NCBI GenBank assembly: GCA_903908065.1
Contig: CAIVQO010000047.1
Location: 1 to 64,000, forward strand
DNA from: an uncultured beta proteobacterium
GTDB taxonomy: Bacteria > Pseudomonadota > Gammaproteobacteria > Burkholderiales > Rhodocyclaceae
Direction: 5' to 3'
DNA: 64,000 nt
Positions 18,772 to 43,304 of the stretch are shown here, piece by piece. The notes beneath the pieces are model-generated. The model was not told the DNA's origin. It saw only the letters and a program-made list of their open reading frames with translations, and did not search any database. Positions within the stretch are counted from its first letter, which is position 1. Every line of letters starts with the position of its first letter. Made by a program: the position numbers and the translations under genes.

Positions 18772-18836
18772 ATGCTAGTGAATCGACCGCTCCCGGTCTG
18801 TTGTTCCTTTGTCGAGCGAATGTAACAACGCGTATC
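18772..18836 (-). promoter_or_regulatory. RstA-type promoter E, di-haem cytochrome operon
   Basis: On the minus strand: half-sites GATAC (18836-18832) and GTTAC (18826-18822), 10 bp apart start to start; a 21-bp gap; CAGACC (18800-18795); a 17-bp spacer; TAGCAT (18777-18772). Same geometry as promoters at 31971, 34767 and 38030. It precedes the gene starting at 18717 by about 55 bases. Confidence 0.75.
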
Positions 18837-18922
18837 GACTGGCCGCAGCCGCCGGTCGGCTCCGTAAGCCGCTCAGGAATCCAATGCCGGCAAGAAGAAT
18901 CCGCCGGCGGGCAGCAATCTGT

Positions 18923-19207
18923 TCAGCGCGGATTGCGGCTGCCGTAGCGCGGATGCCAATACACCTTATCGACAGCACATTCGGCACACTCGGACGAGAC
19001 CATGGCTTCGGCGACTTCCTTGACGGCCCCGATACTGTGCGGCGGATAAAGTCCGGCAACCCAGACCGGGTCGCGCGCCAGAGTGCGCACCCTGGCCTCG
19101 GGAATCCCCTTCTCGCGCAGCTCCCTGATGGCGTCGACAAGCTGATCCTGAAGCGCACCAGGGGTATCCTTGCAGACATTCCGGCACCCGCGTATTTCAT
19201 TTGTCAT
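18923..19207 (-). CDS. Small Cys-containing hypothetical protein
   Basis: 94 residues from ATG 19207, with GGGAG seven bases upstream. Contains GCRNVCKD near the start and SSECAECAVD near the end, two Cys pairs that could bind metal or form disulfides, around a helical middle (DQLVDAIRELREKGIPEARV). Lies 78 bases after the response regulator at 19286, at the tail of the secretion operon. No signal peptide and no family recognised. Confidence 0.55.
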   Translation of the reverse strand: MTNEIRGCRNVCKDTPGALQDQLVDAIRELREKGIPEARVRTLARDPVWVAGLYPPHSIGAVKEVAEAMVSSECAECAVDKVYWHPRYGSRNPR

Positions 19208-19285
19208 CGACGATCTCCCTCGAAGCCGGGATTGTAGCCTCGTGCCTCGGGTTCGAACAATTCGCAGCGCACCCTTCACCGGTAC

Positions 19286-19933
19286 TCACGGACTGCCACT
19301 CGCAATGCCACGCAGACGAATGCGGGCATGAACCACCATTGGCGAGGTTAAGCGGCGAATCTGGAGATCGCCCCCGATCGATAGCCGGACCACGGTACGC
19401 GCCCCAAGGGCGGGGCGCGGCAGGGTGAGCTGGAACGTGGTACCGGGCTCCGCGACCGGCTGGCCGTCGACGGCAAAACTCGGGCGACCGAGTACGGCAG
19501 CCGCGCGTTCCGCGTTCACCCCGGCATCATGGGTAAGCTCAAGGAGGTAGCGCCACCCGGGACTCCCCTGAAGCTCGATCGGCGACACCGGCTTGTCCAG
19601 ATATATGTCGGCTCCGCTGGCATAGCCCTTGACGCGATCCTCAACGGCGGTGCGTGCCGTGAGCATGATGATGTAGATATCCGGATGGGCATTGCGCAGG
19701 CGCTCGGAGATGCTGTAGCCGTCCTCTCCTGGGAGGTTCAGATCGAGAATCAGCACATCCACCCAGTCCTTGGCCAGGTGTTCATCAAGATCATCGGCGC
19801 AGTCGAAGCCCCTGACATCGTGCGCCTGCTTGCCGAGGAAGGCGACGATAACCTCGCGCAAGTCGGCCTGATCCTCGACCACCACAACCTTCAGCGTTAT
19901 GAGACTGGGGAAAGCCCCCATTGAACTTGCCAT
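19286..19933 (-). CDS. Response regulator with unrecognised C-terminal domain
   Basis: 215 residues. Residues 13-125 form a receiver: VVVVEDQADLREVI, phospho-acceptor in DVLILDLNLPGEDG, IIMLTARTAVEDRV and ADIYLDKPVSPIELQ. Where an OmpR regulator would have a winged helix, the last 90 residues (HDAGVNAERAAAVLGRPSFA ... FQLTLPRPALGARTVVRLSI) match no DNA-binding fold I know and look strand-rich. I checked the other frames for a shifted winged helix and saw none. It lies 81 bases after the 7TM kinase gene at 20015 and is its natural partner. The start could be a later ATG such as 19921. Confidence 0.8.
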   Translation of the reverse strand: MASSMGAFPSLITLKVVVVEDQADLREVIVAFLGKQAHDVRGFDCADDLDEHLAKDWVDVLILDLNLPGEDGYSISERLRNAHPDIYIIMLTARTAVEDRVKGYASGADIYLDKPVSPIELQGSPGWRYLLELTHDAGVNAERAAAVLGRPSFAVDGQPVAEPGTTFQLTLPRPALGARTVVRLSIGGDLQIRRLTSPMVVHARIRLRGIASGSP

Positions 19934-22031: not shown

Positions 22032-22550
22032 TCAACGCGGCGGCATGGCGGGAGTCCCGCCCGCCGCGACGAACTTCCAATCGGCATAGCTGCGGGCCTG
22101 GCGGAACGCCACGTAGTCGGCGGGAAACCCGTCCTTGCGCAGGGGTTCGCGAGAGGAATTGGAGCGCACGCCTACGATCTGTCCGTTGGCGTCGAGGATC
22201 AGGATCCAGGTGCCGCTCATAGGCCCGGAGTCGGTCAGTTCCGGATCATGCATCGGATCGCGATAGATCTTGCGCAGATAGCGCTGGACTCCCGGCTGGT
22301 TTGGGTCCCGGATCAGGGAGTCCAGCCGCTTCGGAAATGGCTCGGGATTTCCCTGGTTCTTGAGGTGGTACTGCTCGATGGCGCGACGAATAGCATCACC
22401 GGCAAACATCAGGTCGCGCTCCTTGTCGCGGCGGACTTCGTTGCCCAGCAGGCTGGCGCCCGCCGATACCGTAAGTGAAGCCACCGTAATTGCCAGCAGC
22501 AGCCCGAAATAGGTGTAGCCGGCCTGCGCCCGCGAACTACCAATCCTCAT
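22032..22550 (-). CDS. Minor pseudopilin, lacks Glu5
   Basis: 172 residues with a class III prepilin-type N-terminus: basic head, Gly, then YTYFGLLLAITVASLTVSAG. The residue at +5 after the cleavage Gly is Gly rather than the Glu present in most pilins, as in tip pseudopilins of the GspK kind. The rest (KERDLMFAGDAIRRAIEQYH, IYRDPMHDPE) is GspG-like. Last of three overlapping pseudopilin genes at the end of the secretion operon; overlaps the one before by 14 bases. Confidence 0.8.
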   Translation of the reverse strand: MRIGSSRAQAGYTYFGLLLAITVASLTVSAGASLLGNEVRRDKERDLMFAGDAIRRAIEQYHLKNQGNPEPFPKRLDSLIRDPNQPGVQRYLRKIYRDPMHDPELTDSGPMSGTWILILDANGQIVGVRSNSSREPLRKDGFPADYVAFRQARSYADWKFVAAGGTPAMPPR

Positions 22551-22920
22551 AGCGTGTCCCGTCGCGTGGCGTGCCTGCGGCGCCGCTGCGGATATCGCGG
22601 ATGCCGGCGACGGTCGTCCCGGTCTGCTTCACGGGTGCCCACGAGCTGGCATCGCCCGCCACCGGGTCCACCGGAATCTCGCGCAGGTACCTATTTTTCA
22701 CCAGGTCGTCCAGCGAAGCCGGCCACTTCCCGGTGTCCTGGTAGAACTGGTCGATGGCTTCGCGCATCGCCTTGAGGTTGGCACGCAAGGCCACCTCGCG
22801 CGAATTCTCCAGACTTTTGAAGTAGCGCGGCGCGGCAATCGACGCCAGGGTTGCGACAATCGCCATAACAACCAGCAGCTCGATCAGGGTAAAGCCGCGC
22901 AGCTTCTTCTTACCAATCAC
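22537..22920 (-). CDS. GspG-like pseudopilin
   Basis: 127 residues. Prepilin peptidase site K-K-L-R-G before FTLIELLVVMAIVATLAS, then the helical stalk and a C-terminal domain (FYQDTGKWPASLDDLVKNRY, EIPVDPVAGD, GTRYEDW) in GspG style. Overlaps the preceding gene by 11 bases. It builds or caps the pseudopilus of the secretion system and is processed in the inner membrane. Confidence 0.88.
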   Translation of the reverse strand: MIGKKKLRGFTLIELLVVMAIVATLASIAAPRYFKSLENSREVALRANLKAMREAIDQFYQDTGKWPASLDDLVKNRYLREIPVDPVAGDASSWAPVKQTGTTVAGIRDIRSGAAGTPRDGTRYEDW

Positions 22921-23386
22921 GATAGGGCACTCCGTTCAGGCCGCGCACGGCAGACAGCGAATACACATCGAAGACGTCACGCCCCTCGCGCGGCTCGTCG
23001 GGCCCGCTCGCATAGCTGCGCTTGCCCCAGGTCTGAGCCGCTGGCAGCGTCGGATCCGGATGCATCGGATCGCGAGGCACGCGGCGCAGGAAATAGAGCT
23101 TTTGCCGTTCCGGGCTGCTGATATCCTCGACCCCTGTGGCCAGTTCATCTATGGTCCGCGGAAAGCCGCTGTCGCCCTGGCTGTGCTTGACCTTGCCCTC
23201 GTCGACGGCGCGCTTGTAGGCATCCAGCGCACCGCGGATCTCGCGCAGCGCGTTGCGCAGGTCCCGCTCGTTGCCGCGCTTGACCACCATTTCTTTCAGG
23301 GGCATGGCCATGGCCGCCAGGATGCCAACGATCGCCACCGTGATGACCAGTTCGATCAGCGTGAACCCACGGGCCCGGCGCATCAC
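22910..23386 (-). CDS. GspG-like pseudopilin
   Basis: 158 residues. Prepilin signal RRARG before FTLIELVITVAIVGILAAMA, then RNALREIRGALDAYKRAVDE and a GspG-type C-terminal domain ending YRDW. Its ATG overlaps the secretin stop (ATGA). With three pseudopilins here and one at 31225, the system has four, fewer than the five of a classical type II system; this suits the atypical, MSHA- or Oxp-like kind. Confidence 0.88.
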   Translation of the reverse strand: MMRRARGFTLIELVITVAIVGILAAMAMPLKEMVVKRGNERDLRNALREIRGALDAYKRAVDEGKVKHSQGDSGFPRTIDELATGVEDISSPERQKLYFLRRVPRDPMHPDPTLPAAQTWGKRSYASGPDEPREGRDVFDVYSLSAVRGLNGVPYRDW

Positions 23387-25683
23387 TGCCTCCCGGCGTT
23401 CCCGATCATCAGCTGCATGGGACCGCTACCCTTGACCGGCAGCGTGCCCCCCCCCATCAGCGACGGCACCGCCGTCGCCACATGCACCTGCGTCTGGCCT
23501 TCCTTGCCCAGCGCCTTGAAGGTCACCGCCAGAATCGAGCCGGCGCCGCTCGCACCAGTGGCGGCGCTGCGCCTGATACCGGCATATACCCGCCCGGTAG
23601 AGGCATCCGCACGCTGAGTGAAGTTGGTCTGCGCGCTGTCGTTACGCAGCAGGTCACCCTCGGCGATACTGACGACCGACAGTGCCCCCGGATCGAACAG
23701 CAACTGCATTTCGGCACCGGCAAGCGCCGCGGTGCTGCTGCCCTCGACACTGACGGTGAATTCTTCGCCAGGCTTCACTTGCGTCGGCCCCTTCCAGGAA
23801 AGTTGCAGCGCCTCCGCAGGCGGCACGTCGGCGGTTCTGGCCGCTGCCGGTCCAGCCGGCGCCAGCGCTGCAACGGTCGTGGCCGCCGGTCCGCCCACCG
23901 CCACCGAAGTCCGGTTGGCGGCAAGCTTCACCGGCTCGTCGGGCAGATTCAACACCGGCCGCGCGACACGGAATGCCGCCTCGGTGCCGGACCACACCGC
24001 AGCCATGTCCAGAGGCGGCCGCGGGATGTTGCGCACGATGCGCGGCGTGATCGAAAGCACGATTTCGGTCTTCTGACCATCGGTGCGGGTATTCGAGAAC
24101 AGACGGCCGAGCACCGGGATGTCGCCGATGCCGGGCAGGCGCGATGCCTTCTCGATCTCGTCGTCCTGGATCAGGCCCATCAGGGTCTGCGTCTCGCCAT
24201 CCTTGAGTTGCAGCACGGTCGAGGCGTTGCGCGTGCCGACGCGGAAGGCCACCGTTCCGTTCTTGCTGGTCACCTGGTCACCCAGGGTGCTGACTTCGAG
24301 GTTCATCTTGATCATCACGCCGCCGTCAAGATGGATGTTCGGCTCGATTTCGAGCTTGAGGCCGACGTCGAGGTACTGGATGTTGTCGGTAATCACCGGA
24401 GTGGTGGTGTTGGGCGTCACCACCGACGAGATGACCGGGATGCGGTTGCCAATCAGGATCTTTGCCTTTTCCCGGTTGCGGACACGAATGCGCGGGTTCG
24501 ATAGCAGGTTGCTGTTACCAACCTCGCGCTTAAGATTCAGCGATCCGGGATAGGGGCCGCCGGTGATGCCGCGGGAATTCATGGTGAACTGGTCGGGAAA
24601 CTGCAGGCCGAGCTGGGAGAGCTGGGAGCGGAGGATTTCCAGCACCTCGACCTCCAGCATCACTTCGGGCTCGGCGTGATCCTGCACCGAGATCAGGTTC
24701 TCGGCCAGGCGGATCACCTCCGGCGTATCGCGAATCACAAGCAGGTTCAGTTTCTCGTCGATAAAGGTGTCCTTGGTCTTGAGCATGGTCTTGATCATGT
24801 TCTGCGTCTGCTTGACGTCGGCATTCTCAAGATAGAAGGAACGGATCACCAGGTCCTGGTACTCGCGGATCTTTGGTGCCGTAGCCGGATAGATCATCAG
24901 GGTGTTGTCGTTGAGCACCTTGCCGGCGAGCTGGTTGGGCTCCAGCAGCAGCGCGATGGCATTCTCGATCAGCACGTCGCGCACCGCGATGCTGACCCGG
25001 ATGTCCGGCCGCACTTCCTTGTCGAAGATAAAATTCAGCCCGCTGCCCTTGGCCAGCGCATCGAAGACCTGGCGCAAACTGGCTTCGCGGAAGTCCAGGC
25101 TGATCGGTTGCGTATAGCGCGACTTGAGCTGTGGCGCAGAGATGATCTGGCGAAAGCGCTTGGACTGGATCTCGCGCCGCGCCTCGCGCGCCTCCTGCTG
25201 CTCCGGGTTCTCGGCCAGCACCTTGTAGAGCAGGTCGAGGGCAAGTTCGGCCTGCCCCTTGGCGTCGGCTTCGATTGCCTTGCGTACCTCTGCCCGATGC
25301 CGCCGTGCCCGCGCCACCGACTCGAGGCCAGCAATTGCACGTGGGTTGCCTGGCTGCATGGCCAGGACGCGCTGGAAGGTCTCCTCCGCGGTGCTGATGC
25401 GCCCGCCTGCGAGGTCGGCGTCAGCGCTGGTGAGCAGCTCGAACATGGCCTTTTCGCGCAGCTCGATGAGCCCGGTGCGCAAGGAATAATCCCGCGGATC
25501 CGAGCGTGCTGCGTCGCGCATGCGGCCGATGCCGTCTTCCACGCGCCCCTCGGCCACGAGGCCGCGCCCTTCCCGCGAGAGGAACTCGGCCCCGCATCCG
25601 GGCAAGGTAAGCAGGATCAGGGCAAGGCCCGCCCAGAGCCCAATGCCCATGGCCTGGAAAGCCACTTTGGTTTCGTGATTCAT
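23383..25683 (-). CDS. gspD: Secretin with C-terminal cohesin domain
   Basis: 766 residues. Signal with lipobox LPGC (about residues 28-31), a TPR-like region (60-180), N-domains (SLDFREASLRQVFDALAKGS, FYLENADVKQTQNMIKTMLK) and the secretin core (LLSNPRIRVRNREKAKILIG ... IPVLGRLFSNTRTDGQKTEI, SITPRIV). After a Pro/Ala linker, residues about 624-762 form a cohesin-like domain (PGEEFTVSVEGSSTAALAGA, LLFDPGALSVVSIAEGDLLR, SILAVTFKALG). The outer-membrane ring through which folded proteins leave the cell. The fused cohesin would face the periplasm or the cell surface and could bind cargo. Overlaps both neighbours (ATGA at each side). Confidence 0.93.
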   Translation of the reverse strand: MNHETKVAFQAMGIGLWAGLALILLTLPGCGAEFLSREGRGLVAEGRVEDGIGRMRDAARSDPRDYSLRTGLIELREKAMFELLTSADADLAGGRISTAEETFQRVLAMQPGNPRAIAGLESVARARRHRAEVRKAIEADAKGQAELALDLLYKVLAENPEQQEAREARREIQSKRFRQIISAPQLKSRYTQPISLDFREASLRQVFDALAKGSGLNFIFDKEVRPDIRVSIAVRDVLIENAIALLLEPNQLAGKVLNDNTLMIYPATAPKIREYQDLVIRSFYLENADVKQTQNMIKTMLKTKDTFIDEKLNLLVIRDTPEVIRLAENLISVQDHAEPEVMLEVEVLEILRSQLSQLGLQFPDQFTMNSRGITGGPYPGSLNLKREVGNSNLLSNPRIRVRNREKAKILIGNRIPVISSVVTPNTTTPVITDNIQYLDVGLKLEIEPNIHLDGGVMIKMNLEVSTLGDQVTSKNGTVAFRVGTRNASTVLQLKDGETQTLMGLIQDDEIEKASRLPGIGDIPVLGRLFSNTRTDGQKTEIVLSITPRIVRNIPRPPLDMAAVWSGTEAAFRVARPVLNLPDEPVKLAANRTSVAVGGPAATTVAALAPAGPAAARTADVPPAEALQLSWKGPTQVKPGEEFTVSVEGSSTAALAGAEMQLLFDPGALSVVSIAEGDLLRNDSAQTNFTQRADASTGRVYAGIRRSAATGASGAGSILAVTFKALGKEGQTQVHVATAVPSLMGGGTLPVKGSGPMQLMIGNAGRQ

Positions 25684-26327
25684 ATTCCGGATCCGATCGA
25701 AAGGATTTGTGTTTCGCGCAGGGGCAGGTAAACGAAGCGCAGGCTGGCGCCGTCGGCTCGCTCGAGGAGGTAAGTGTTATCGATGCTTTCGCCGACGCTG
25801 GCTGAAATCACTTCCATTCCACGAAACAGGAAGTAGATGCGTTGTCCATTGCCCTCATCGACCTGCCCCATGAAGCGGAATGGCAGGGGCGGCGCCCTGG
25901 GGGGCTCGATGACGGGGGGAGGTGGTGGCGGTGGTGGCGGTGGTGCGACGACCCAGCTCTTTGCGCCGAACGCATTGCCGCTTTCGCTGACTGCGCCGAG
26001 ATCGCGCTGCCGGGCCAGCAATTCGAGCCGCACCGGCCCGCCCATGGGCAACGCCGCGACGTCCGCCGACCCGGCGCGCTCGCCCCCGGGCGCGGCCGGG
26101 GCCGTCGCCAGCACCGGCTCCAGGCGCAGCAGCAAGCCACCTTCGACGGCATCGCCATCGCCCGGCGGCAGGGCGGCACGGGCATGCTCGGCCAGCCGGA
26201 GTTCGATGCGCAGCGGACGCAGGTCCGCTCCGCCAAGGAGCTGTGTTGAATCGACACGCTCGACTTCGATTCCCACCATGCCGGCGAGCACGCCGAGCAC
26301 GAGAACCACAATAGGCTTCCGCTTCAT
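25680..26327 (-). CDS. PilP/GspC-like alignment protein, proline-rich
   Basis: 215 residues. N-terminal membrane anchor (IVVLVLGVLAGMVGIEV), an Ala-rich region, a run of ten prolines, then a small C-terminal domain (PFRFMGQVDEGNGQRIYFLF, VISASVGESIDNTYLLERA) typical of GspC HR or PilP domains that dock on the secretin N-domains. The coding strand has a GGT/GGC-type simple repeat at about 25917-25952. Overlaps the PilO-like and secretin genes by four bases each. Confidence 0.75.
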   Translation of the reverse strand: MKRKPIVVLVLGVLAGMVGIEVERVDSTQLLGGADLRPLRIELRLAEHARAALPPGDGDAVEGGLLLRLEPVLATAPAAPGGERAGSADVAALPMGGPVRLELLARQRDLGAVSESGNAFGAKSWVVAPPPPPPPPPPVIEPPRAPPLPFRFMGQVDEGNGQRIYFLFRGMEVISASVGESIDNTYLLERADGASLRFVYLPLRETQILSIGSGI

Positions 26328-26893
26328 CGCTTGCCCGCCAGGAAAATGCTCAGGCGTATCTGTGCCTCGATCGCAGCCTCGCCGACGTTCTGGCGCTGCA
26401 GGGCGATGCCATCGAGCGCTAGCGACGGAACATCACGCAGGGCTCGGCGCACGAAGTTCTTGATGTTTGCATAGGAGCCCTTGACCGGCAACGTGATCTG
26501 GTAGCGCATGACATCCAGTCCGGTCTCGTCGGCCAGGCGATAGTCACCCCGTTCCAGTACCAGGCCCTCGGCTTCCGCTGCGGCAAGCACCTCGCCGACC
26601 ACTCGATTGATGTCCGTTGCCGGCGGCAGGAATCGCTCGAAAGCCGCGATCTGCGCTGCGGGGCTGTTGTCGGAGTGGCGCTTTATTTCGCGCCCGCTGC
26701 GTGGTGACTCGCGCAGGCGCGCCGCCTGAACCTCGAGATCGGCGGCCGACTCCCGGGTCGGAAGCGTGATGCTGAAGAATTCCAGCAGGGCGAGCGCCAG
26801 CAACGCGCCGGCAACGGCGGCGGCCCATCCCAGTCTTAGATAGGTCTGGTGCAGGCGAAATCCTATTTCTGCGCGAGCTTTGCCGATGTCCAT
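26324..26893 (-). CDS. PilO/GspM-like inner-membrane protein
   Basis: 189 residues. One transmembrane helix (WAAAVAGALLALALLEFF), a coiled coil, then a ferredoxin-like domain (FERFLPPATDINRVVGEVLA, MRYQITLPVKGSYANIKNFV) as in PilO. The start at 26893 lies inside the end of the PilN-like gene (31 bases overlap). Forms the inner-membrane platform with the PilM and PilN-like proteins and links the ATPase to the secretin. Confidence 0.8.
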   Translation of the reverse strand: MDIGKARAEIGFRLHQTYLRLGWAAAVAGALLALALLEFFSITLPTRESAADLEVQAARLRESPRSGREIKRHSDNSPAAQIAAFERFLPPATDINRVVGEVLAAAEAEGLVLERGDYRLADETGLDVMRYQITLPVKGSYANIKNFVRRALRDVPSLALDGIALQRQNVGEAAIEAQIRLSIFLAGKR

Positions 26894-27531
26894 GATGCGG
26901 TGAATGTGAAGCGAACGGGACGGTTGGGGTCTTCCGTCATGATCTGGTGGGACTGAAGAATGGCTGGTGCGAGTCGGCCATCGACCCGCAGGCGATCGAG
27001 GTAGGCCAGCATCCCCTGCGCGTTGCGTGCCTCGACGGCAGCGCGCACCTGCGCACTGGCGGGATCGGAGTCCAGGCTGAGCAAGGCAATGTCGTCGTTG
27101 TTCACCGCCTCGATGCTGCCGAAGACATCCTCCCACGGCGTGCTGAGCTGACGGATAACCCGATTCGCCTTCTGAACGCGCTCATCGAGATCGGTGCCAC
27201 GCAGGCGGTTCTGTGCCGCCTGGCGCTGCTCGGCGCCGCGATCGAAACCCAGCGCCGACAATTCGGCCTCGAGCTCGCCAACCCGGGACTGGAAGCGGTC
27301 GGACTGCCAGGAGGCAAGCGAAAGCAAGACCATGCCAATGGCAATGGCGGTAATCCCCGGGACCATCGAACGACGTTGCGGTTGGGCAAAGTCGAGCAAC
27401 AGCGCCGGCGCCCGATGCAAGCCCAGCCGGGCGAAAATTGCGCCTGCGGGAAGCCGCCGACTTACACGCGCGTAGCCGTCCCGCAGCCGGCCCGCCGCAT
27501 GGTGTAACAGCCGCGCGAGATTCGCCTTCAT
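26863..27531 (-). CDS. PilN/GspL-like inner-membrane protein
   Basis: 222 residues from ATG 27531 with GGAG seven bases upstream. Cytoplasmic head, transmembrane segment (SMVPGITAIAIGMVLLSLAS), coiled coil (RVGELEAELSALGFDRGAEQ) and a ferredoxin-like domain (NAQGMLAYLDRLRVDGRL). Its start overlaps the end of the PilM-like gene. In type IV pili and atypical type II systems PilN binds PilM at the membrane. Confidence 0.8.
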   Translation of the reverse strand: MKANLARLLHHAAGRLRDGYARVSRRLPAGAIFARLGLHRAPALLLDFAQPQRRSMVPGITAIAIGMVLLSLASWQSDRFQSRVGELEAELSALGFDRGAEQRQAAQNRLRGTDLDERVQKANRVIRQLSTPWEDVFGSIEAVNNDDIALLSLDSDPASAQVRAAVEARNAQGMLAYLDRLRVDGRLAPAILQSHQIMTEDPNRPVRFTFTASWTSAKLAQK

Positions 27532-27532
27532 T

Positions 27533-28339
27533 TCAGCACTCCAGCGCAGAGCCCGCGCCCAGGGCGAAGCGGGCGTACCGCGTTGGCCGGACCTGCGACA
27601 GGTCAACCAGTTCGACATCGGATCCGGCCAGGCAATCCCTGCCATCCATGCCCGGCGCCTGAAGGTAGAGGCGGCGGGGGAAGTACCTGCCACCGGCCAT
27701 CAGCCTGGCCTCCCGCAAAAGGGCCGGAAGCGCAGTGCAGATGGGCTCGGCCAGCGGCACCGCCACGACGCTCAGCCAGCGACCTCCGGACAGGCTGGCC
27801 AGCACCAGCAGGCCGGGTTCGGCCTGGGCAAACCAGAAGTCCTTGTCACGGATCTGGTGCCGGACCTGGTTGAAGCCCTGCGTCAGCATCGGCTCGAACG
27901 AGCGCAGGCGCAGCCTGGCGCCAAGCAACAACTGCCGTACATCGGCGATCAGGCTGGCGTCGATGGCGGCGGCGAGCTGGTCCTTGCCGGACAGAGGGTT
28001 CGCCAGCCGCACCTCCAGCGCCGCCTGGGCGCCATGAACCTGCTGAAACTTGTGCAGCGCCAATGCACATTCGTCCGCCATGCCTCGCAAGTGCCGGCTG
28101 GGGGGAACGATGCAGTAGCGCACCTGGGCGTTGGATACTTGTACCCGGGCGTCCGCATCCTGCCAGCGTGGATCGGCCAGGCACTCCTGCAACCCTGCCG
28201 TCAGCGCGCCCTCGCCAGCGGCAAGCATCTGTTCGTGGCGCGCCGCGCGCCGCGGAGCAATGCCCCGGCTCCAGCGCGTAAGGACCAGGCGCTGCGGGTG
28301 CAGTTCGATGACGACCGTGTCCTTAAACAAAGGTGACAC
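27533..28339 (-). CDS. PilM-like actin-fold protein
   Basis: 268 residues from the GTG at 28339, which has AGGAG seven bases upstream inside the end of gspE. Begins MSPLFKDTVVIELHPQRLVL (GTG read as Met), where canonical PilM has its first nucleotide-binding strand. The later part (LIADVRQLLLGARLRLRSFE, QAEPGLLVLASLSGGRWLSV) follows the MshI/PilM-type layout, but the phosphate motifs are weak, so nucleotide binding is doubtful. Cytoplasmic adaptor between the ATPase and the PilN-like protein. Confidence 0.72.
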   Translation of the reverse strand: MSPLFKDTVVIELHPQRLVLTRWSRGIAPRRAARHEQMLAAGEGALTAGLQECLADPRWQDADARVQVSNAQVRYCIVPPSRHLRGMADECALALHKFQQVHGAQAALEVRLANPLSGKDQLAAAIDASLIADVRQLLLGARLRLRSFEPMLTQGFNQVRHQIRDKDFWFAQAEPGLLVLASLSGGRWLSVVAVPLAEPICTALPALLREARLMAGGRYFPRRLYLQAPGMDGRDCLAGSDVELVDLSQVRPTRYARFALGAGSALEC

Positions 28340-31210: not shown

Positions 31211-31224
31211 TGCCGTGTCCGGCC

Positions 31225-31970: not shown

Positions 31971-32035
31971 ATCATAGGGAGGCTAGGTTGCCGGGTCTGT
32001 CGCCGCCGTGTCGCCGATGCGTAACGCTCTGTAAC
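31971..32035 (-). promoter_or_regulatory. RstA-type promoter A, secretion operon
   Basis: Minus strand: perfect GTTAC half-sites at 32035-32031 and 32025-32021 (10 bp period), a 21-bp gap, CAGACC (31999-31994), a 17-bp spacer, TATGAT (31976-31971). The first gene starts about 65 bases downstream of the -10. The half-sites sit near -57 to -71, a class I activator position. Confidence 0.78.
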
Positions 32036-32142: not shown

Positions 32143-34707
32143 TTACGGGACCGTAACCTGATTGCAACCGCCGAATTCGGGGGAATAGACATAGACCGCG
32201 ACAGGTTTGACTGCCAGCGGTATGGCGCCGAAATCGAAGGCGCCGCCGGCAAGCACGGGCACCGCCCCGATCTGGGTGCCGAGGGTGGGCGCGGTGCAGC
32301 CCGCGGCGCCCGTCGCCTCATTCGGCAGGCGCAACTGGAGCAGTTGGCCCTGGGCAATATTGACCGTGCCATTCACCGCCACCGTGCCCAAGTTCGGGGC
32401 GCGGGGCGCCGTCCAGCGCGCGCGCTGCACCGTGATCACCTCGGCGCCGAGTGCATTGACCGCCACCACCCCGGGATTGGCAGCAATGCCGACGCGATCG
32501 GTGAAGGTGTAGCCCATGTTCCAGTTGCCGGCCAGGGGCGGGGTAAACACCAGTTTGCCCGTGACAAAACTCGCCGCGCCGGGGGCACAGGTGCCGGTGG
32601 TCAGATTGCAGGGCTCGGCGGTCATGCGCAGCGTCGCGGGATCGATACCGGCGACCGCAAAATCGTTGGCCGTCACGTCGAGGATCAGCGGCTTGCCGAC
32701 GATGCCGCTATTGGCAAGGTCATCCCGCGCATCCGGCAGCCCGTTGAGCGCGCCGATGTTCACGCTGACCTGAGCCCGTTGCGTACCGCCCAGCACCGTC
32801 GCCGCCTGATAGTAGAAGCTGTCGCTGGCACCGCCGAAATTCGCCCGCGGCGTGTATGTCACGCGGTTGCCCGAGATCGACAGTTTGCCGCCCTGCGTGG
32901 TGCAGGAGGTCGAGACCGTGCCCGTGGTACAGGTCGCCGTCAGACTCGGCACCCCGCAGGTTCCGCCGGTCGCCGCGGTGCAGATCACGAGAGTCGGCGC
33001 TGGCGCCACGCCGACATCGTTGGCCAGCACGTCGACGATCACCGGCAGGTTCATCGCCGTCGACACCGAGTCAGGCTGAAATACCGCCATCCCGGCCGCC
33101 GCGCCGAGATACATCACCTGCTGCCGATCCCAGCCGCCGGCGCTGGAACGAACCGTTACGAATGCCGGCGGGGTCTGCACGTTGGGGATGCTGATCGTCG
33201 CCAGGACTTGCTTCGCCGTCGCAGTGACTTTCATCTTGTAGTCAATGGGTACGCCCTGCGCGTCCATCGCCGGCAAGCCGTAATTGTCGAGTATCAGACA
33301 GGGATCGGAACAGACCGTCGCGCCCGCTGACTGGCCGGCGGGGGATGGCGCAACCAGCAACGCACCGGAATCGGCAGTGACCGTCAGGACCCGGGTATTG
33401 GCGTTGTAGTTTGCCGCCGTGACTCGCAGTTCATCGACCAGCAGCGCATTCACCATCGATACCGGATTGTCCGTCGTGGTGCGGATTCGCGCATGCGTGT
33501 ACGCCGGCGATACCCGCCCTGCCACCACCGGTTGGACGATGCCGTTGAAGTAACGGTAATTCGGCGTGGCCGTGGTACCCGCGACGGGAACGGGCTGCCC
33601 CACCGCCAAGGCCAGCATGGCCTGTTCCGGAGTTGAATTGGCGGCGTCCGCCGGATCGCCTTTGTTCAGGCTCAAGCCCAGCACCGGCACCGGGCGGCCG
33701 ACTTCCTGGAGCGCATTGGCCCAGGCCCCGATCTGGAAGCGGTCAGCCACGCCATCGGCATTGCTGTCGAGTGCGCGGTAGGTCACCCGGTCGACCACCG
33801 TCCGGGTTGCAACCGGTACCGTATTGATGCGGCCAAACACACTGATATCGTTCAAGGCATACGCTGCCTCGGTCACGGCGCAGTTACCGGAAATGATGCC
33901 GGGCCCCACCGCCATCACGTAGTTGGTCGTTGCCATTGCGCGGATTTCCGGGGGGATATAAGCGAGCGTGCTGCCCTTGAAGGGGTTGACCTGCGTGCTG
34001 CCGGTCACCGGACCGACATCCCCCTGGGAAAGATATTTTTTCCCATCGGCCCCGCTGACGGTCGGAGCCACCACACCTCCCGGAGTCAGCGCCCGTTGTA
34101 GGAAAGGCCCGACCGAGCCGGCCAGGGCACCGTCGAAGCCGACGCCGATGCCGATATCCTCGGTATCGGCAATTCGACCGCCGGCCACGCCAACGATGGT
34201 CTTTGGCGCGCGGCTCGGGGTGTAAAAGGTGTAGCTTCCGCTGCAGGCCAGATTATCCACCCTCACCCGCCAGCGATTGAACGTGATTTGCTGCCCGACC
34301 TCGGGCGTCGGCGTGTTGAATGTTGCCTCGACCCCGTTCACGAACACGAAGCGCCCGGCACCGGACGCGGGCAGGCCGGTTTTCTTGTCCAGCCCGGCCG
34401 TGGTCGACACCGAACTCAGCAGGTAATAAAAATGTTCCAGGCTGAAATTGGCGGGGAAGGCTTCCGGCAGGGCGCTCAGGCCATCGGGTGGAGGGCCGGG
34501 CAGAATGGCGCACAGACCGGCATTCAGGTCCGCCAGGGTGGTCGGCGAACAAAACTCCAGGGTCAATCCGTTGGCATCCTGGTACCACTGGGGAAAACCA
34601 TGGGATGCATCAACCGGGCCGCTGCGTTGCAGCGCCGCCAAAGCCGGTGCGGCAAACATCGACACGGCCACGCCGGCAAGTGCAATTTTCTTGGCAATGA
34701 ATTTCAT
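32143..34707 (-). CDS. Large exported Ig/cadherin-like protein 1
   Basis: 854 residues from ATG 34707 with AAGGA six bases upstream; signal peptide IALAGVAVSMFAAPALA. Domains: N-terminal region with WYQDANGLTLEFC and INFNRW-like strands; an EF-hand-like loop ALDSNADGVADRF near 312; an Ig-like module (about 425-520) ending PPAFVTVRSSAGG; then cadherin-like repeats of the VDVLANDVG ... VTYTPRANFGG kind from about 555. About 60 percent similar by eye to the next gene along its length, so the pair is a tandem duplication. Probably a cargo or cell-surface partner of the secretion system. Enzymatic activity unknown. Confidence 0.8.
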   Translation of the reverse strand: MKFIAKKIALAGVAVSMFAAPALAALQRSGPVDASHGFPQWYQDANGLTLEFCSPTTLADLNAGLCAILPGPPPDGLSALPEAFPANFSLEHFYYLLSSVSTTAGLDKKTGLPASGAGRFVFVNGVEATFNTPTPEVGQQITFNRWRVRVDNLACSGSYTFYTPSRAPKTIVGVAGGRIADTEDIGIGVGFDGALAGSVGPFLQRALTPGGVVAPTVSGADGKKYLSQGDVGPVTGSTQVNPFKGSTLAYIPPEIRAMATTNYVMAVGPGIISGNCAVTEAAYALNDISVFGRINTVPVATRTVVDRVTYRALDSNADGVADRFQIGAWANALQEVGRPVPVLGLSLNKGDPADAANSTPEQAMLALAVGQPVPVAGTTATPNYRYFNGIVQPVVAGRVSPAYTHARIRTTTDNPVSMVNALLVDELRVTAANYNANTRVLTVTADSGALLVAPSPAGQSAGATVCSDPCLILDNYGLPAMDAQGVPIDYKMKVTATAKQVLATISIPNVQTPPAFVTVRSSAGGWDRQQVMYLGAAAGMAVFQPDSVSTAMNLPVIVDVLANDVGVAPAPTLVICTAATGGTCGVPSLTATCTTGTVSTSCTTQGGKLSISGNRVTYTPRANFGGASDSFYYQAATVLGGTQRAQVSVNIGALNGLPDARDDLANSGIVGKPLILDVTANDFAVAGIDPATLRMTAEPCNLTTGTCAPGAASFVTGKLVFTPPLAGNWNMGYTFTDRVGIAANPGVVAVNALGAEVITVQRARWTAPRAPNLGTVAVNGTVNIAQGQLLQLRLPNEATGAAGCTAPTLGTQIGAVPVLAGGAFDFGAIPLAVKPVAVYVYSPEFGGCNQVTVP

Positions 34708-34766: not shown

Positions 34767-34831
34767 ATGGTAGGCAGGCGACGATCCCGGGTCTGTTGCG
34801 GCTTGGTCGATGTTTTGTAACGAACTGTCGG
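34767..34831 (-). promoter_or_regulatory. RstA-type promoter B, exported protein 1
   Basis: Minus strand: one perfect half-site GTTAC followed by A (34821-34817), with only a poor match 10 bp upstream (CCGAC, 34831-34827); a 21-bp gap; CAGACC (34795-34790); a 17-bp spacer; TACCAT (34772-34767). The gene starts 60 bases downstream. Confidence 0.7.
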
Positions 34832-34870
34832 TGCTGGCGCACATGCCGCCTGGCCAGGGCACACGCCTGC

Positions 34871-34912
34871 AAAACGCAGCGCCCCGGAGTCCGAAGACTG
34901 CGGGGCGCTGCG
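34871..34912 (-). terminator. Terminator after exported Ig-like protein 2
   Basis: Perfect 12-bp stem CGCAGCGCCCCG / CGGGGCGCTGCG with a 14-base loop, followed on the minus strand by TTTT. Stem sequence shares GCGCCCCG with the terminator at 32061, consistent with duplication of the whole gene unit. Confidence 0.88.
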
Positions 34913-34967: not shown

Positions 34968-37535
34968 TTACGGCACTGCAATCTGGCTGCAGCCACCGAA
35001 GCTCGGCGAGTAGACCCACACTGACAGCGGCTTGACTGCCACGGGGATCGCACCGAAGTCGAAGCCGCCGCCAACAACCACTGTGCTGCCCAGGCTCAGC
35101 GCACCCGGTGTTGCGGCGGGATTGTTGCAACCGGCCACGGCTGTGGTAGCACCATACAACTGCAGAGTCTGGCCCTGGGAGATATTCACTGTGCCATTCA
35201 CCGCAACCGTGCCCAGGGCTGGCGCCCGGGGAGCACGCCATACGGCACGCGGGGTGATCACTTCCGCACCGATCGCATTGACCGCGACCACGCCCTGATC
35301 GGCTATGTTGCCGAGCCGGTCATTGAAGGTGTAGAACATGTTCCAGTTGCCCGCATACGGCGCGGTAAATACCAGCTTGCCAGCGGTAAATACCGCCGCC
35401 CCGACTGCCTTGGCACCGGTCACTGTGTCGAACGGATCGCCATTCGCAACGATGCGTAGCGTCGCCAGATCCACACCAGCCGGGGCGAAGTCGTTGGCCA
35501 GGACATCGATGGTCAGCGGCCTGGTTGCCACACCAGTGTTGCCGAGGTCATCACGCGCATCGGGCAAGCCGTTGAGCAGGCCGATGTTTACCGTGACCTT
35601 CTGGCGCTGCGTGGTACCCAGCACCGTGGCGGCCTGATACCAGAAGGTATCGGTAATGCCACCGCGGTTGGCCGGCGGGCTGTAGGTGATGATGTTGCCA
35701 GTAATCAACAGACGGCCACCTTGCGCCGTGCAGCTGGTCGACGCCGTGCCGGGCGTACAAGTTGCGGTCGGGCTGGGCACGCCGCAGGTCCCGCCGGTGG
35801 GTCCAGTGGTGCAGCTGAGCAGGTTGGGTACTGCAGCAACACCCACGTCGTTGGCCAGTACATCGACCGGCGCCGCCACGTTCATCGGAATCGATGCCGT
35901 GTCTGGCTGGAAGGATGCCGTACCCGCCGCCGCGCCGAGGTACATGGTCTGCGCCGAGTCAATGCCACCCGCGCTGGAGCGCACGGTCACGAAGGCCGGC
36001 GGTACCTGCACGTTGGCAATGGTCACGGTGCCGACCGCGAACTTCGAGGTCGATGCCACCTTCAGCTTGAAGTCCTGGACAACGCCGGTTGCCGTGGTTG
36101 CCGGCAGGCCGTAGGAATCCAGCGTCAGGCAGGGTGTGGAGCAGCCCAGCGTCGCGGTTTGCGTTGCCGGGGTCGGCGCCGACAGGAAGGCGCCGGAATC
36201 GGCGGTAACGGTCAGCACCTTGGTATTGGCGTTGTAATTGGCGGTAGTGATGCGCAGCTCATCCACCAGCGGCACATTCACCGTCGACGGGGGCACGTCA
36301 GTCGTCGTACGTACCCGGGCATGCGTATAGGCCGGGCCTGGCTGGGCTGCCACCGTCGGCTGGATCACGCCGTTGAAGAAGTTGAACTTCGGCGTCGGAA
36401 CCTGCCCTGGAACCACGGCCGGCGTGGTCACCACGACACTCTTCAGCATCGCCACTTCGGGGGTCGAATTCACCGCATCGGCGGGATCACCCTTGTTCAG
36501 GCTCAGGCCAACGATAGGTTCGGGCCGGTTGACTTCCTGCACCGCATTGGCCCAGGCGCCGATCTGGAAGCGGTCCGGCGTGCCATCAGCGTTGGAGTCG
36601 ACCACACGGAATGTCGCGCGGTCGATATTGGTCCGGCTGGCGATGGCGGCGGTATTCACGCGGCCGATGACGGCGATGTCATTGATCGCCCAAACCGCTT
36701 CCTGAGCCGCACAGTTGCCCGAGGCAATGCCGGGACCGGAGACCATGAAGTAGTTGATCTTCGGCATGTTGCGTATTTCCGGCGGAATCGCGAAGGCAGG
36801 CAATGGGGCACCGCTGCCCACCCAGAACGGATTGTCCAGCGCACTGCCGGTGATCGGGCCGAGGTCGCCCGCAGAGAGGTACTTCTTGCCATCGGCGCCG
36901 GTGGCAAGCGGTGCCGCCACGCCGCCAGGCGTGACCGCACGGGTAACGAAGGGCCCGACGCCGCCGTTCAGGGCACCCGTGAAGTCCGTGCCGATACCGA
37001 GGTCCTCGGTGTCGAACAGACGACCGCCGGCGGTAACCGGAATCGTCTTCGGCGCGCGGCCCGGCGAATAGACGGTGAAATTGCCGGAGCAGGCCATGCC
37101 AGCCTGCGCCTGTGGCGCCTGCACGCGCCAGCGAGCGAAAGTGATCTGCTGCCCGGGTTCCGCAGTCGGCGTGTTGAAGGTGGCCTCGAGACCCTGCAAT
37201 ACTTTGATCGGAGTGGTCTGGCCGGGCGTGGCCGAGGCCATGGTCATTACCGCGGAGGTGAAGTAATAGAAATGTTCTTGCGACCAATTGGTCGGAAACA
37301 CCTCGGGGACGGTCGTCACCTCTGCTGGCGTGATAAAGCAGATGCCGGAAATAAGGTCGGCCTGCGTGGCTGGTAGACACAATTCGAGGGCCATGCCATT
37401 TGCGTCCTGGTACCAGGCCGGGTAACCATTGGCCGGATCGACCGGTCCGACGCGCTGCAACACGGCATGTGCCGGCGGCGCAAGCGTCATTGCCGCGAGG
37501 CTTGCCGCGACAATCTTATTGAATGCGATTTTCAT
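34968..37535 (-). CDS. Large exported Ig/cadherin-like protein 2
   Basis: 855 residues from ATG 37535, AAGGAG six bases upstream; signal peptide IVAASLAAMTLAPPAHA. Same domain order as the gene at 32143: WYQDANGMALELC, EF-hand-like VVDSNADGTPDRF near 311, Ig-like module RITTANYNANTKVLTVTADS to VPPAFVTVRSSAGG, then cadherin-like repeats (VDVLANDVGVA, ITYSPPANRGG, IDVLANDFAPA). Starts 68 bases after the CusF-like gene and lacks its own copy of the shared promoter, so the two are probably one transcript from promoter C. Likely secreted by the system at 22032-31904; function unknown. Confidence 0.8.
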   Translation of the reverse strand: MKIAFNKIVAASLAAMTLAPPAHAVLQRVGPVDPANGYPAWYQDANGMALELCLPATQADLISGICFITPAEVTTVPEVFPTNWSQEHFYYFTSAVMTMASATPGQTTPIKVLQGLEATFNTPTAEPGQQITFARWRVQAPQAQAGMACSGNFTVYSPGRAPKTIPVTAGGRLFDTEDLGIGTDFTGALNGGVGPFVTRAVTPGGVAAPLATGADGKKYLSAGDLGPITGSALDNPFWVGSGAPLPAFAIPPEIRNMPKINYFMVSGPGIASGNCAAQEAVWAINDIAVIGRVNTAAIASRTNIDRATFRVVDSNADGTPDRFQIGAWANAVQEVNRPEPIVGLSLNKGDPADAVNSTPEVAMLKSVVVTTPAVVPGQVPTPKFNFFNGVIQPTVAAQPGPAYTHARVRTTTDVPPSTVNVPLVDELRITTANYNANTKVLTVTADSGAFLSAPTPATQTATLGCSTPCLTLDSYGLPATTATGVVQDFKLKVASTSKFAVGTVTIANVQVPPAFVTVRSSAGGIDSAQTMYLGAAAGTASFQPDTASIPMNVAAPVDVLANDVGVAAVPNLLSCTTGPTGGTCGVPSPTATCTPGTASTSCTAQGGRLLITGNIITYSPPANRGGITDTFWYQAATVLGTTQRQKVTVNIGLLNGLPDARDDLGNTGVATRPLTIDVLANDFAPAGVDLATLRIVANGDPFDTVTGAKAVGAAVFTAGKLVFTAPYAGNWNMFYTFNDRLGNIADQGVVAVNAIGAEVITPRAVWRAPRAPALGTVAVNGTVNISQGQTLQLYGATTAVAGCNNPAATPGALSLGSTVVVGGGFDFGAIPVAVKPLSVWVYSPSFGGCSQIAVP

Positions 37536-37603
37536 GTTGACTCCTTGGGGTTGGGGGGGAACGTCGTTACTACGGAAGGAACCACCAGGCCTGGTAGGCC
37601 CGA

Positions 37604-37939
37604 TCAGTCCCTGGCCTTGTGGGCCAGCGGATCGCGCCGGGGTTCTATCTTCGTCACCAGCCATTCGCGGCCGGACTTTTCTATCGTGAAGCGCACGTTG
37701 TCGGTGGCCTTGACGCCATCGAGGATCGCGCGATCCTTGACGCCAAAGCCCATGGTCATGGCGTGCATGGACATTTCGGGCCAGTCACCGTGCTTGATCA
37801 CCACGCGGCCGGCGGCGGCGTCGACTTTCTTGATCTCGCCGTCGGTACTGGCGGTCTGGGCGAAGGCGGCGGCGGATAGCACGACAAGTGCGGCGGCTGC
37901 CGCAGCCCGGCCGAGGAATTTGTTCAAACTGGCTTTCAT
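37604..37939 (-). CDS. CusF/PcoE-like periplasmic copper-binding protein
   Basis: 111 residues with a signal peptide (AAAAALVVLSAAAFA). The OB-fold domain has the CusF copper ligands: His in VIKHGDWPEMSM, the cation-pi Trp of DWPEM, and Met residues of MSMHAMTMGFGV. Binds Cu(I) or Ag(I) and hands it on, here probably to the multicopper oxidase rather than to an efflux pump, since no CusABC genes are present. First gene behind promoter C, upstream of exported protein 2. Confidence 0.88.
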   Translation of the reverse strand: MKASLNKFLGRAAAAAALVVLSAAAFAQTASTDGEIKKVDAAAGRVVIKHGDWPEMSMHAMTMGFGVKDRAILDGVKATDNVRFTIEKSGREWLVTKIEPRRDPLAHKARD

Positions 37940-38029: not shown

Positions 38030-38094
38030 AGCGTACGCAGCCGGCCCAGGCAGTTCAGTCGCAGTCCTGTCGCGTCTGTGTAACAGTGCGTCAC
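38030..38094 (-). promoter_or_regulatory. RstA-type promoter C, cusF-like gene
   Basis: Minus strand: half-sites GTGAC (38094-38090) and GTTAC followed by A (38084-38080), 10 bp period; a 21-bp gap; CTGAAC (38058-38053) at the -35 position; a 17-bp spacer; TACGCT (38035-38030). Weaker -35 than the other copies, but identical spacing. Confidence 0.68.
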
Positions 38095-41045: not shown

Positions 41046-41087
41046 GTCGTATCTCCTTGAACTTTGATTGGCGCGGGACTGGGACGG

Positions 41088-43103
41088 TCAGACCACCTTG
41101 AACAGGACCATCATTCCGTGGTCTTCATGCACGGTGTTGTGGCAGTGCATTGGCCAATAGCCCTTCCAGTCGCGGAAACGCATCGCGGTGACGGCCTCCT
41201 CGCTCGGATCGAGACGGAGCGTGTCCTTGCGCCCGGTTTCGATCGCGCTAGTCGGGTTGGGCGTCGCCGTGCCCTTGCGGGACAGGATGCGGAACTCCTC
41301 GTTGTGCGGGTGGATGGGGTGCGACCAGGAACCGCCGCCGTTCTTGTGCGTCCACACCTCGGCCGTGCCTTCCGGGATTTCGTAAGGTGCCGCGTAGCGG
41401 TCGAAGTACACGCCGTTGGCGTTCCAGGCACCGTTGCCGCGGCCCCAAACCCAGATCTTCCGCTTGGCCGTGGCGACATTGACCGGATCGGGCAAGGGCC
41501 GCAGCGGCATGCCATTGACGATCTTGGTGCTGTTGTCGGTCAGCCCGGGGCGGGCGGCCTCGACCTGGAACTTCATGTAATTCCAGCCCTGGCCCACGGG
41601 TAGCAGCTTTCCCGAGGGGCCGCGTCCGGTAGGACTATCGGCACGATTGGTGAGGACAAACTCGGTTCCGGGTTTCATGCCGGTGAAGTCGATGATGACG
41701 TCCATGCGTTCGCCTGGTGCAGCCTTGAAAGACTGCGTCGAAACGGCGCGCGGCAGCAGGTTGCCGTCGTTGGCGATCACCGTCATCGGCACGAAGGTGG
41801 AGGTGTTCACCCCCTGGCTCAGCCACAGCCAGAGGAAGCGCGAGGGACCGCCGCTGATGATGCGGAAGCGGTAGCGGCGCGGTTGCACCTTCATCACGGG
41901 CTGGATCGTGCCATTGACCGTGGGCATGTCGCCCATGGCGCCATCGAAGCAGCCAAGCGGGAAGAAGTCAACGCCGTTGGGATCGAACTGGCGATCGTGC
42001 AGGATCATCGGCACGTCGAACTCGTAGGGGAAGGAGCCCGCATCCTGCGAATGCGTGGGGAAGCGCACACCGGTGGCGCCGAGCACGGTCTCGTCACCGG
42101 CATCAACCTCGTCATAGATCGGACAGGCACCGAACAGGCCGGCATACACGTTCTGCGAGGTGAAGTCGTGCTTGTGATCGTGGTACCAGAGCGTACCCAG
42201 CCCCTCCTTGTAGTCGCCGCGCACGCCCCACTTGGGCGAAACGAAGCCCTTGCTGCAACCGGCATAAAGGTTGGGATAGTGGTAATCCCAGAAGTGCCCC
42301 GGGTAGTTGTAGGACAACGGGCCGCCGTCACTCTCGGACGGCGTGTGGTTATTGTGCATGTGCGTGCAGATGGTCGAGGTACCGACACCAAGCTCGCCGA
42401 CCTGATCGACCGGGGTGTCGGGCAACTCGTTGTACAGGCGTACCAGGTTGGCGACGCCGTACTTCTGGCGGTACACGGGGCCAGGGACGCCGGTGATGGC
42501 GCCATCCACGCCCGTGACGCCGCCCGCCCAGTTGCGCGGCGCGAAGCCCCAGGCCAACTGGCCGCCGGCGCCGGCCGGCAAGTCGCTGTGCCAAACATGC
42601 TTGTGGCGAATGGCGCGCAGCTCGTAGAAATTCTTGGGCGGTGCCAGGCAACCGGCAGTGCTGTCGGTGCCGTCCCAGGCCTGGTGGCCGCCATCCTTGA
42701 TCGGGAAATGCCCCTTCATCTCGGGATGTTCTTCATGCAGCAGCTTGAGCTTCGAGTCCATCGGGCTGTAGGGCATTTGCATCGGTTTGCCGCCGCGCAG
42801 GAACATGGCATCGGTGAGTTCCGAGACGCTGCTCTTCACCGTGTAGGTGGGGGTCAGCTCGGGCATGCGGCGGAAGGGATCCTTAAAGGGCGTAACGCGC
42901 GGGCTGATGATTTCGCTCCCCGGGATGGGACAGGTGGCCGCCAACGCGGCGCGCAAACTGAGGCCGGAGATCGGCAGCAGCATGCCGGTACCGGCACCGA
43001 GTACGCCAAGCTTCATCAAATTGCGCCGATTAAGCCCTTCCCGGGTGAGTTCCCGTTGCACATCCATCGTGCGCTGGATCAGTTTCATCTGGCTCTTGTT
43101 CAT
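41088..43103 (-). CDS. Multicopper oxidase, Tat-exported
   Basis: 671 residues. Twin-arginine signal (LNRRNLMKLGVLGAGTGMLL). All four copper motifs are present: HMHNNHTPSESDGG near 249, WYHDHKHDF near 309, HPIHPHNEEF near 593, and HCHNTVHEDHGMM near 652 with the axial Met of the type 1 site. The layout is of the CotA/phenoxazinone-synthase kind, larger than usual (500-550) through inserts before and after the first cupredoxin domain. Oxidises a substrate (metal ion or phenol) while reducing oxygen to water. Being next to a type II-like system and a CusF and SCO set, it is a strong candidate cargo acting outside the cell, as shown for OmpB in Geobacter. The substrate is not evident. Confidence 0.93.
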   Translation of the reverse strand: MNKSQMKLIQRTMDVQRELTREGLNRRNLMKLGVLGAGTGMLLPISGLSLRAALAATCPIPGSEIISPRVTPFKDPFRRMPELTPTYTVKSSVSELTDAMFLRGGKPMQMPYSPMDSKLKLLHEEHPEMKGHFPIKDGGHQAWDGTDSTAGCLAPPKNFYELRAIRHKHVWHSDLPAGAGGQLAWGFAPRNWAGGVTGVDGAITGVPGPVYRQKYGVANLVRLYNELPDTPVDQVGELGVGTSTICTHMHNNHTPSESDGGPLSYNYPGHFWDYHYPNLYAGCSKGFVSPKWGVRGDYKEGLGTLWYHDHKHDFTSQNVYAGLFGACPIYDEVDAGDETVLGATGVRFPTHSQDAGSFPYEFDVPMILHDRQFDPNGVDFFPLGCFDGAMGDMPTVNGTIQPVMKVQPRRYRFRIISGGPSRFLWLWLSQGVNTSTFVPMTVIANDGNLLPRAVSTQSFKAAPGERMDVIIDFTGMKPGTEFVLTNRADSPTGRGPSGKLLPVGQGWNYMKFQVEAARPGLTDNSTKIVNGMPLRPLPDPVNVATAKRKIWVWGRGNGAWNANGVYFDRYAAPYEIPEGTAEVWTHKNGGGSWSHPIHPHNEEFRILSRKGTATPNPTSAIETGRKDTLRLDPSEEAVTAMRFRDWKGYWPMHCHNTVHEDHGMMVLFKVV

Positions 43104-43218
43104 TCTTTGCTTCTCCTAGGGTTGTAAGGTATGGATACGACCTTGCTTCGCCTGTCACGCGCCTTCCCCCGAAGACTGTGTCCAGATACAGCGTGTTGTA
43201 GTGGTTGCCGTAGGAGGA

Positions 43219-43304
43219 ATGCTAGGGACAAAGCCGACGCACTTCGTCGGTCATTGGTCGCGCCTGGACAGCAATTCCGTATGGGTTTTGTAACGTTGCG
43301 TAAC
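43219..43304 (-). promoter_or_regulatory. RstA-type site D and candidate promoter, oxidase operon
   Basis: Minus strand: two perfect half-sites, GTTACGCAACGTTACA (43304-43289), the best pair in the window. The usual -35 and -10 are absent at standard spacing, but TAGCAT (43224-43219), in the same CTAGCATTC context as promoter E, lies exactly 21 bp, two helical turns, further away. Leader to the oxidase ATG is about 115 bases. Confidence 0.6.

Follow-up and report, generated by a model that had tools for sequence, protein, structure and literature searches.

Do five operons on the minus strand of one environmental contig answer to a single regulator and, if so, to which one and from which position? 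The window, a 64,000-nucleotide stretch of contig CAIVQO010000047.1 from an uncultured betaproteobacterium (Rhodocyclaceae), carries operons for a multicopper oxidase (MCO), a CusF-type protein, large exported proteins, type II-like secretion and a di-haem cytochrome, together with genes for a response regulator and a hybrid sensor kinase, here called 43689 and 44393 after their first coordinates. The original prediction, made from the bases alone, had proposed that the leaders share one promoter architecture matching the RstA box, with a class I site near -64. Our analysis makes it very probable that RstA-type promoters head all five operons and unite them in one local regulon, which 43689 and kinase 44393 would control from a class II array. 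The idea of one regulon is supported by the shared array, by its specificity within the genome and by its conservation together with the regulator.

A phased array locked to the -10 box

Four of the leaders are built alike. With position 1 set at the first G of GTTAC (18826, 32025, 34821 and 38084, minus strand), all four read GTTAC(1-5)-N7-CGAC(13-16)-N7-CRACWGAMC(24-32)-N17-TAnnnT(50-55), and are referred to here as 50-type promoters. The predicted distances were borne out in each: exactly 21 bp lie between GTTAC and CAGACC (CTGAAC at 38084), and exactly 17 bp between this hexamer and a -10-like box (Table 1). A second GTTAC located 10 bp upstream had been claimed for three promoters, but is present as a strict copy in only one (32035), the others reading GATAC, CCGAC and GTGAC. 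The element common to all five leaders is (T/G)AC-N5-GTTAC, with TAC in three and GAC in two, and the ATNTN middle of the RstA box TACATNTNGTTACA is not retained. The CGAC and CRAC elements (13-16 and 24-27), found in 4/4 short promoters, are absent from the original description; with them the operator becomes a direct array with AC at positions -6, 4, 15 and 26, in steps of 10, 11 and 11 bp. Its last step (26-27) touches the -35 hexamer CAGACC (27-32). Judged from the bases, the operator abuts the -35 hexamer, which is what marks a promoter as class II, and because the array runs on to this hexamer, we favour a class II tandem operator over the class I site first proposed.

Behind GTTAC, the four short promoters share 16 invariant columns. 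In 2000 dinucleotide shuffles the mean was 1.8 and the maximum 6, and 50,000 sets of four drawn at random from the window's 40 remaining GTTAC sites reached at most 7; the shared pattern is thus not due to chance, and is stronger than originally described.

A genome-wide search had been suggested with GTTAC-N5-GTTAC as its core. This pair alone proved too weak: it occurs twice in the 3.84-Mb genome, both times at this locus, versus three occurrences of the reversed control. Its form with a final A was rejected as a genome-wide test, as it matches 27 of 66 genomes, some of them without this regulator. At up to three mismatches the extended 32-bp motif gave 14 matches, of which four are exact, all at this locus, none has one or two mismatches across the genome, and ten have three; the reversed control gave 23 at up to three. 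Since the motif was derived from the four promoters themselves, what carries weight is the absence of any match with one or two mismatches, and by this the 50-type regulon seems restricted to this locus.

The fifth leader, that of the oxidase, was rightly placed in this group with respect to its strict GTTAC pair (43304/43294). It has a -10-like TAGCAT as well, but at position 71 from GTTAC 43294 instead of 50. The same spacing is found in a genome of the same order (G038), in the leaders of its CusF operon and of two MCO copies. These three leaders and that of the window all carry AC at 15, 37 and 48, and share 18 invariant columns, versus a maximum of 7 in 2000 shuffles. In sequence terms, this 71-type array is the 50-type array extended by 21 bp, or two helical turns. 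All three 71-type arrays of two further loci, L145 and L146, which played no part in deriving the rule, fit the 71 spacing. In G038 the second MCO copy, likewise behind a 71-type leader, lies at a contig end (L041/L033) and reads with two in-frame stops.

We compared both types with 1117 distinct GTTAC contexts from all loci examined, a background that includes the derivation sites and related genomes, with one context in both groups. TAnnnT starts exactly at 50 in 54 of the 66 contexts with AC at 15 and 26 (18/1044 among the others), and at 71 in 7 of the 8 with AC at 15, 37 and 48 (7/1044 among the others). When 27 promoters, with members and -10 offsets chosen by hand, were aligned on the -10 box, AC was found at -56 in 25, at -46 in 18, at -35 in 19 or -34 in 8, and at -24 in 17 or -23 in 8. 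The leader between the -10-like box and the GspG open reading frame (ORF) is long (>200 bases; 31749-31971, minus strand).

Link to RstA and the candidate regulator

The RstA box of E. coli and Klebsiella, TACATNTNGTTACA, is described as two tandem half-sites (PMC4117788), and in its letters is a tandem TACA with a 10-bp step. RstA is reported to bind E. coli asr through its box and to activate this gene (PMC11135836). In E. coli K-12 asr, the box TACATATCGTTACA puts AC at -55, -45, -35 and -24 from TATAGT, a -10 that we assigned from sequence and that lies 61 bp before the annotated start codon; further AC dinucleotides lie at -80, -43, -31 and -28. The corresponding steps of the 50-type promoters, at -56, -46, -35 and -24, agree within 1 bp, and this agreement, read from the two sequences, is the strongest link of the window promoters to RstA. 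The RstA-type box of the original prediction thus gained support from the array and its distance to the -10, as well as from RstA-type loci elsewhere that carry the same promoter (see below).

Regulator 43689 was proposed to be RstA-like, and its domains agree. Both the receiver (PF00072) and the OmpR-type winged helix (PF00486) are over cut-off, the best NCBIfam model is RstA (PRK10701.1; 252.7 bits), with OmpR next at 177.9, 75 bits lower, and the closest PDB structures of the DNA-binding domain are those of RstA (2naz, 2mlk and 4nhj). RstA is also the best model for the G038 orthologue (248.5 bits). In Klebsiella RstA, Arg199, Val203 and Arg207 are described as contacting bases, and Arg207Ala as abolishing binding (PMC4117788). 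The recognition helix of 43689, RSIDMRVSR, retains Arg199 and Arg207. The genome encodes nine OmpR-type winged-helix genes, and with 43689 as query no other winged-helix gene of the genome reaches E<=1e-50. Together, these comparisons make 43689 the most likely regulator of the five operons.

The regulator at 13004, named in the original prediction as an alternative reader of the box, was rejected as not RstA-like: its best model is CreB (147 bits), and at the three contact positions it carries Arg, Val and His, the last in place of the essential Arg207. A further response regulator (19286-19933, minus strand) has a receiver that resembles that of a full OmpR-type regulator, L144, on the same contig; its C-terminal part is without Pfam match, and the regulator may be degraded.

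Genomes of the same genus (L126, 9069-9856; L127-L131; L133) carry a regulator approximately 36% identical to 43689, whose best NCBIfam model is OmpR (259.6 bits, below cut-off) and whose best match in the genome of the window is OmpR (50%). Its gene is preceded by GTTACAGTGCGTTACA and TATAAG, and a second site, GTTACGCTGCGTTACA, lies 1.6-9.7 kb from it in six genomes. This looks like a separate, self-regulated system.

Recurrence of the array with the regulator in other genomes

Searches of the 30 further genus genomes gave no match to 43689 at E<=1e-50, and weak matches to the oxidase in 8 (best E 3.1e-16). Regulator and oxidase probably arrived together, since neither has a strong match elsewhere in the genus. 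At E<=1e-80 the oxidase query found 11 of 399 genomes of the order (G000 included), most at 40-45% identity, and at E<=1e-110 only G000 among 369 genomes of the class; one stretch of the genome contigs collection was matched, with zero confirmed relatives.

RstA-type loci were taken as the best 80 of 493 in a contig scan with the regulator. A strict 50-type site occurs 43 times in 42 of these 80, on the regulator strand and downstream of the regulator, and never on the opposite strand; a -10 shifted by -1 or +1 occurs once each, and shifts of 2-6 do not occur. In 39 loci the site lies 1.36-1.56 kb behind the regulator. In L087, where it can be placed, GTTAC begins at 7144, behind a kinase match that extends to 7075. 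The 42 loci are related and do not represent 42 independent events; many of their records are titled Dechloromonas or Azonexus, and their regulators are approximately 56-58% identical to 43689. In the wider set of loci, some record titles (e.g. L149, L154) name pathogens although the records are metagenome-assembled genomes, and may be mislabelled. The strict site is lacking in 38 loci; four of them (L145, L146, L148 and L152) have an array of another form, and the rest include loci titled Accumulibacter, Propionivibrio and Vogesella.

L145, L146 and L152 keep the gene order regulator-MCO-Sco-Sel1-228-amino acid (aa) protein, with oxidases 69-71% identical to that of the window. The stretch from regulator to MCO holds a 71-type array in L145 and L146, and a further array of this type is present in L146; L152 has neither strict form, and its MCO leader shows AC at -24, -35, -46 and -56 from TAGCAT.

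In L162 (7164 onward), L155, L176, L180, L208 and L216, the promoter behind the kinase gene reads into an ORF of approximately 50 aa, which in several loci contains ..IKMNIKQFIEATRQYLF.. and of which one example had nothing over cut-off in Pfam. Its message may be leaderless, since approximately 12 bp separate the ATG from the first base of the -10 box upstream.

The array also recurs at other target genes. The 898-aa protein used as query in nine genomes behind RstA-type loci gave 16 matches in six of them. Seven of the ten matches at >=47% identity have an upstream array, directly or through CusF, and no array was seen at the six distant ones (<=38% identity). GspF is present in 7 of 10 genomes searched, and the GspG leaders of G038, G800 and G803 carry the array with TA at 50; no GspG was seen in L241, and no site in L246 and L247 (GspF 44% identical). 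Ten arrays independent of the derivation of the rule, at CusF, 898/909-type and GspG genes of G038 and G800-G803, have AC at 15 in all ten and at 26 in nine, and TAnnnT at 50 in eight, at 49 in one (L238) and nowhere in one (L228); they were picked by GTTAC and AC steps, and for the GspG leaders the -10 could count towards the pick. Genomes with this regulator thus repeat the array and its -10 spacing at MCO, CusF/898-aa and GspG promoters.

Alternative readings, the gene package and known systems

A number of observations weigh against assigning the five operons to an RstA-type regulon of 43689. With its 252.7 bits, the regulator stays under the curated 330-bit cut-off of the RstA equivalog, and we therefore file it as RstA-like and not as RstA; its helix has Met in place of Val203. 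Of the 80 RstA-type loci, 38 lack the strict 50-type site; in L147 no form of the array was seen in the leader that follows the regulator, and in L151 GTTAC and AC steps are combined with TA at 61. The remaining three of the ten closer 898-type matches are tandem copies without a site of their own, and the GspG gene of G801, which comes immediately after a 909-type gene, is also without its own site. The GTTAC-N5-GTTAC pair is not unique to RstA, as it precedes the OmpR-best regulator gene of genus relatives that lack 43689. Finally, L137 of this genome is a true OmpR (409.7 bits versus a cut-off of 331) with a similar helix, RAIDVQISR. The last two points favour a reading in which the housekeeping OmpR, L137, binds the sites and 43689 has other targets, and this reading is somewhat firmer because L137 is a true OmpR. 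We nevertheless regard it as improbable: the absence of further copies of the long motif at 0-2 mismatches in the genome would be odd for a global regulator, the sites adjoin RstA-type regulator genes across other lineages, and 43689 is otherwise absent from the genus, as are high-identity targets.

A class I arrangement is unlikely, though less so. Here only (T/G)AC-N5-GTTAC near -64 would be bound, and CGAC and CRAC would reflect an unusual contact of polymerase or sigma; the published RstA box indeed has two half-sites (PMC4117788), and the downstream steps in the window read CGAC or CRAC and not GTTAC. These steps, however, hold the 11-bp phase in both array types and in asr, and in the oxidase promoter of L152 GTTAC itself stands at the outermost step in the same phase. 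There is also a slim chance that 43689 acts on this array as a repressor of the five operons, as overlap with the -35 would allow this too and the sequence does not give the sign of control, but poor -35 hexamers (CAGACC, CTGAAC) at a fixed spacing suggest dependence on an activator, the role described for RstA at asr (PMC11135836). An origin of the pattern by chance, or as a remnant of promoter DNA that was duplicated, is hardly credible: the 909 and 898 genes are paralogous, but the proteins of the remaining operons are unrelated, the likeness between leaders is limited to the phased columns, and no shuffle attained the observed match.

For the local regulon of 43689 that we favour, the following scheme can be proposed. 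Hybrid kinase 44393 would phosphorylate 43689, possibly by a relay through the receiver of the kinase and an Hpt-like segment at its C-terminus (a weak match, E 0.024, below cut-off). Dimers of 43689 would bind head to tail on AC-ended half-sites 10-11 bp apart, the last step of the array touching the poor -35 CAGACC, 17 bp from TAnnnT, and from this class II position they would recruit sigma-70 polymerase. The short arrays would have room for two dimers, and the oxidase promoter would offer a site for one more, two helical turns upstream.

Table 1. Features of the proposed regulon and neighbouring regulators in the window (all promoters are predicted)
Feature	Position	Strand	Remarks
Operator array (T/G)AC-N5-GTTAC-N9-AC-N9-AC and -35 CAGACC	18795..18834	-	Promoter, 776-aa protein/di-haem cytochrome operon
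-10-like TAGCAT	18772..18777	-	Ends at 18772; putative, from sequence
Operator array and CAGACC	31994..32033	-	Promoter, GspG-led secretion operon; also in GspG leaders of G038, G800, G803
-10-like TATGAT	31971..31976	-	Ends at 31971; putative, from sequence
Operator array and CAGACC	34790..34829	-	Promoter, 909-ORF exported protein (likely start ATG 34707)
-10-like TACCAT	34767..34772	-	Ends at 34767; putative, from sequence
Operator array and CTGAAC	38053..38092	-	Promoter, CusF/898-aa exported protein operon; array also in CusF leaders of G800-G803
-10-like TACGCT	38030..38035	-	Ends at 38030; putative, from sequence
71-type operator array GTTACGCAACGTTAC, AC at 15, 37, 48	43241..43304	-	Promoter, multicopper oxidase operon
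-10-like TAGCAT, oxidase promoter	43219..43224	-	Putative, from sequence
RstA-like response regulator, proposed activator	43689..44396	-	Domains, NCBIfam, PDB, helix comparison
Hybrid sensor kinase (PAS, HisKA, HATPase, receiver), proposed partner	44393..47017	-	Domain search
Second OmpR-type response regulator, rejected as box reader	13004..13801	-	NCBIfam, recognition helix
Multicopper oxidase	41088..43103	-	First gene of its operon
Sco	40425-41045	-	Oxidase operon
Sel1 protein	39388-40413	-	Oxidase operon
228-aa protein	38705-39391	-	Oxidase operon
CusF-type copper-binding protein	37604..37939	-	
Large exported protein	34968..37535	-	898-aa ORF 34968-37664, likely start 37535; paralogue of 909-aa ORF
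Large exported protein	32143..34707	-	909-aa ORF 32143-34872, likely start 34707
Type II-like secretion genes GspG, GspF, GspE, secretin, pseudopilins	22032..31749	-	
776-aa exported protein	16387-18717	-	With di-haem cytochrome spans 13890..18717
MauG-type di-haem cytochrome	13890-16463	-	

The gene content of the five operons (oxidase, Sco, CusF, di-haem cytochrome and dedicated secretion) suggests the oxidation of something outside the cytoplasm. The oxidase, of 671 aa, is similar in sequence to multicopper oxidases such as bilirubin oxidase, CotA and CueO, its nearest solved sequences being bilirubin oxidases (E 3.6e-44), yet it reached no NCBIfam oxidase cut-off.

Within the literature searches made, no description of such a regulon was found, judging by the titles and abstract openings of papers on RstA boxes and on RstA with multicopper oxidases. 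Its description ties an oxidase and secretion package of environmental betaproteobacteria to one regulator, with promoter predictions at base-pair level, and the motif can be used to find more members of the package and to deduce which signal induces it. A further suggestion from these promoters is that the published RstA box of two half-sites is part of a longer operator that reaches the -35 region. A broader view is quite possible, though we hold it only tentatively: the four-step array of 10, 11 and 11 bp locked to the -10 may be a general RstA promoter code, from asr to environmental betaproteobacteria, in which RstA-type proteins would act as PhoB-like substitutes for the -35 with two or three dimers, and to which one lineage with a hybrid kinase would have wired a mobile oxidase, copper and secretion package, perhaps for extracellular metal oxidation.

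Compared to the RstA box of E. coli and Klebsiella, the window leaders have the TAC-N5-GTTACA spacing in common but show four steps where the published box has two, and the oxidase promoter contains an extra box. The targets differ as well, being oxidase, secretion and copper proteins here and acid shock (asr) for E. coli RstA. RstBA systems employ a simple RstB-type sensor kinase as partner, whereas the neighbouring kinase 44393 is a hybrid with PAS and receiver domains, like the kinases that adjoin MCO genes in other loci. The RstA-type loci of Dechloromonas, Azonexus and relatives have the same promoter behind the regulator gene, but only one, before a short ORF in the cases inspected, versus five operons here. 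PhoB, which activates from a class II position at pho boxes with direct 11-bp half-sites that run into the -35 region, is alike in arrangement, with a different half-site sequence and a different regulator subfamily.

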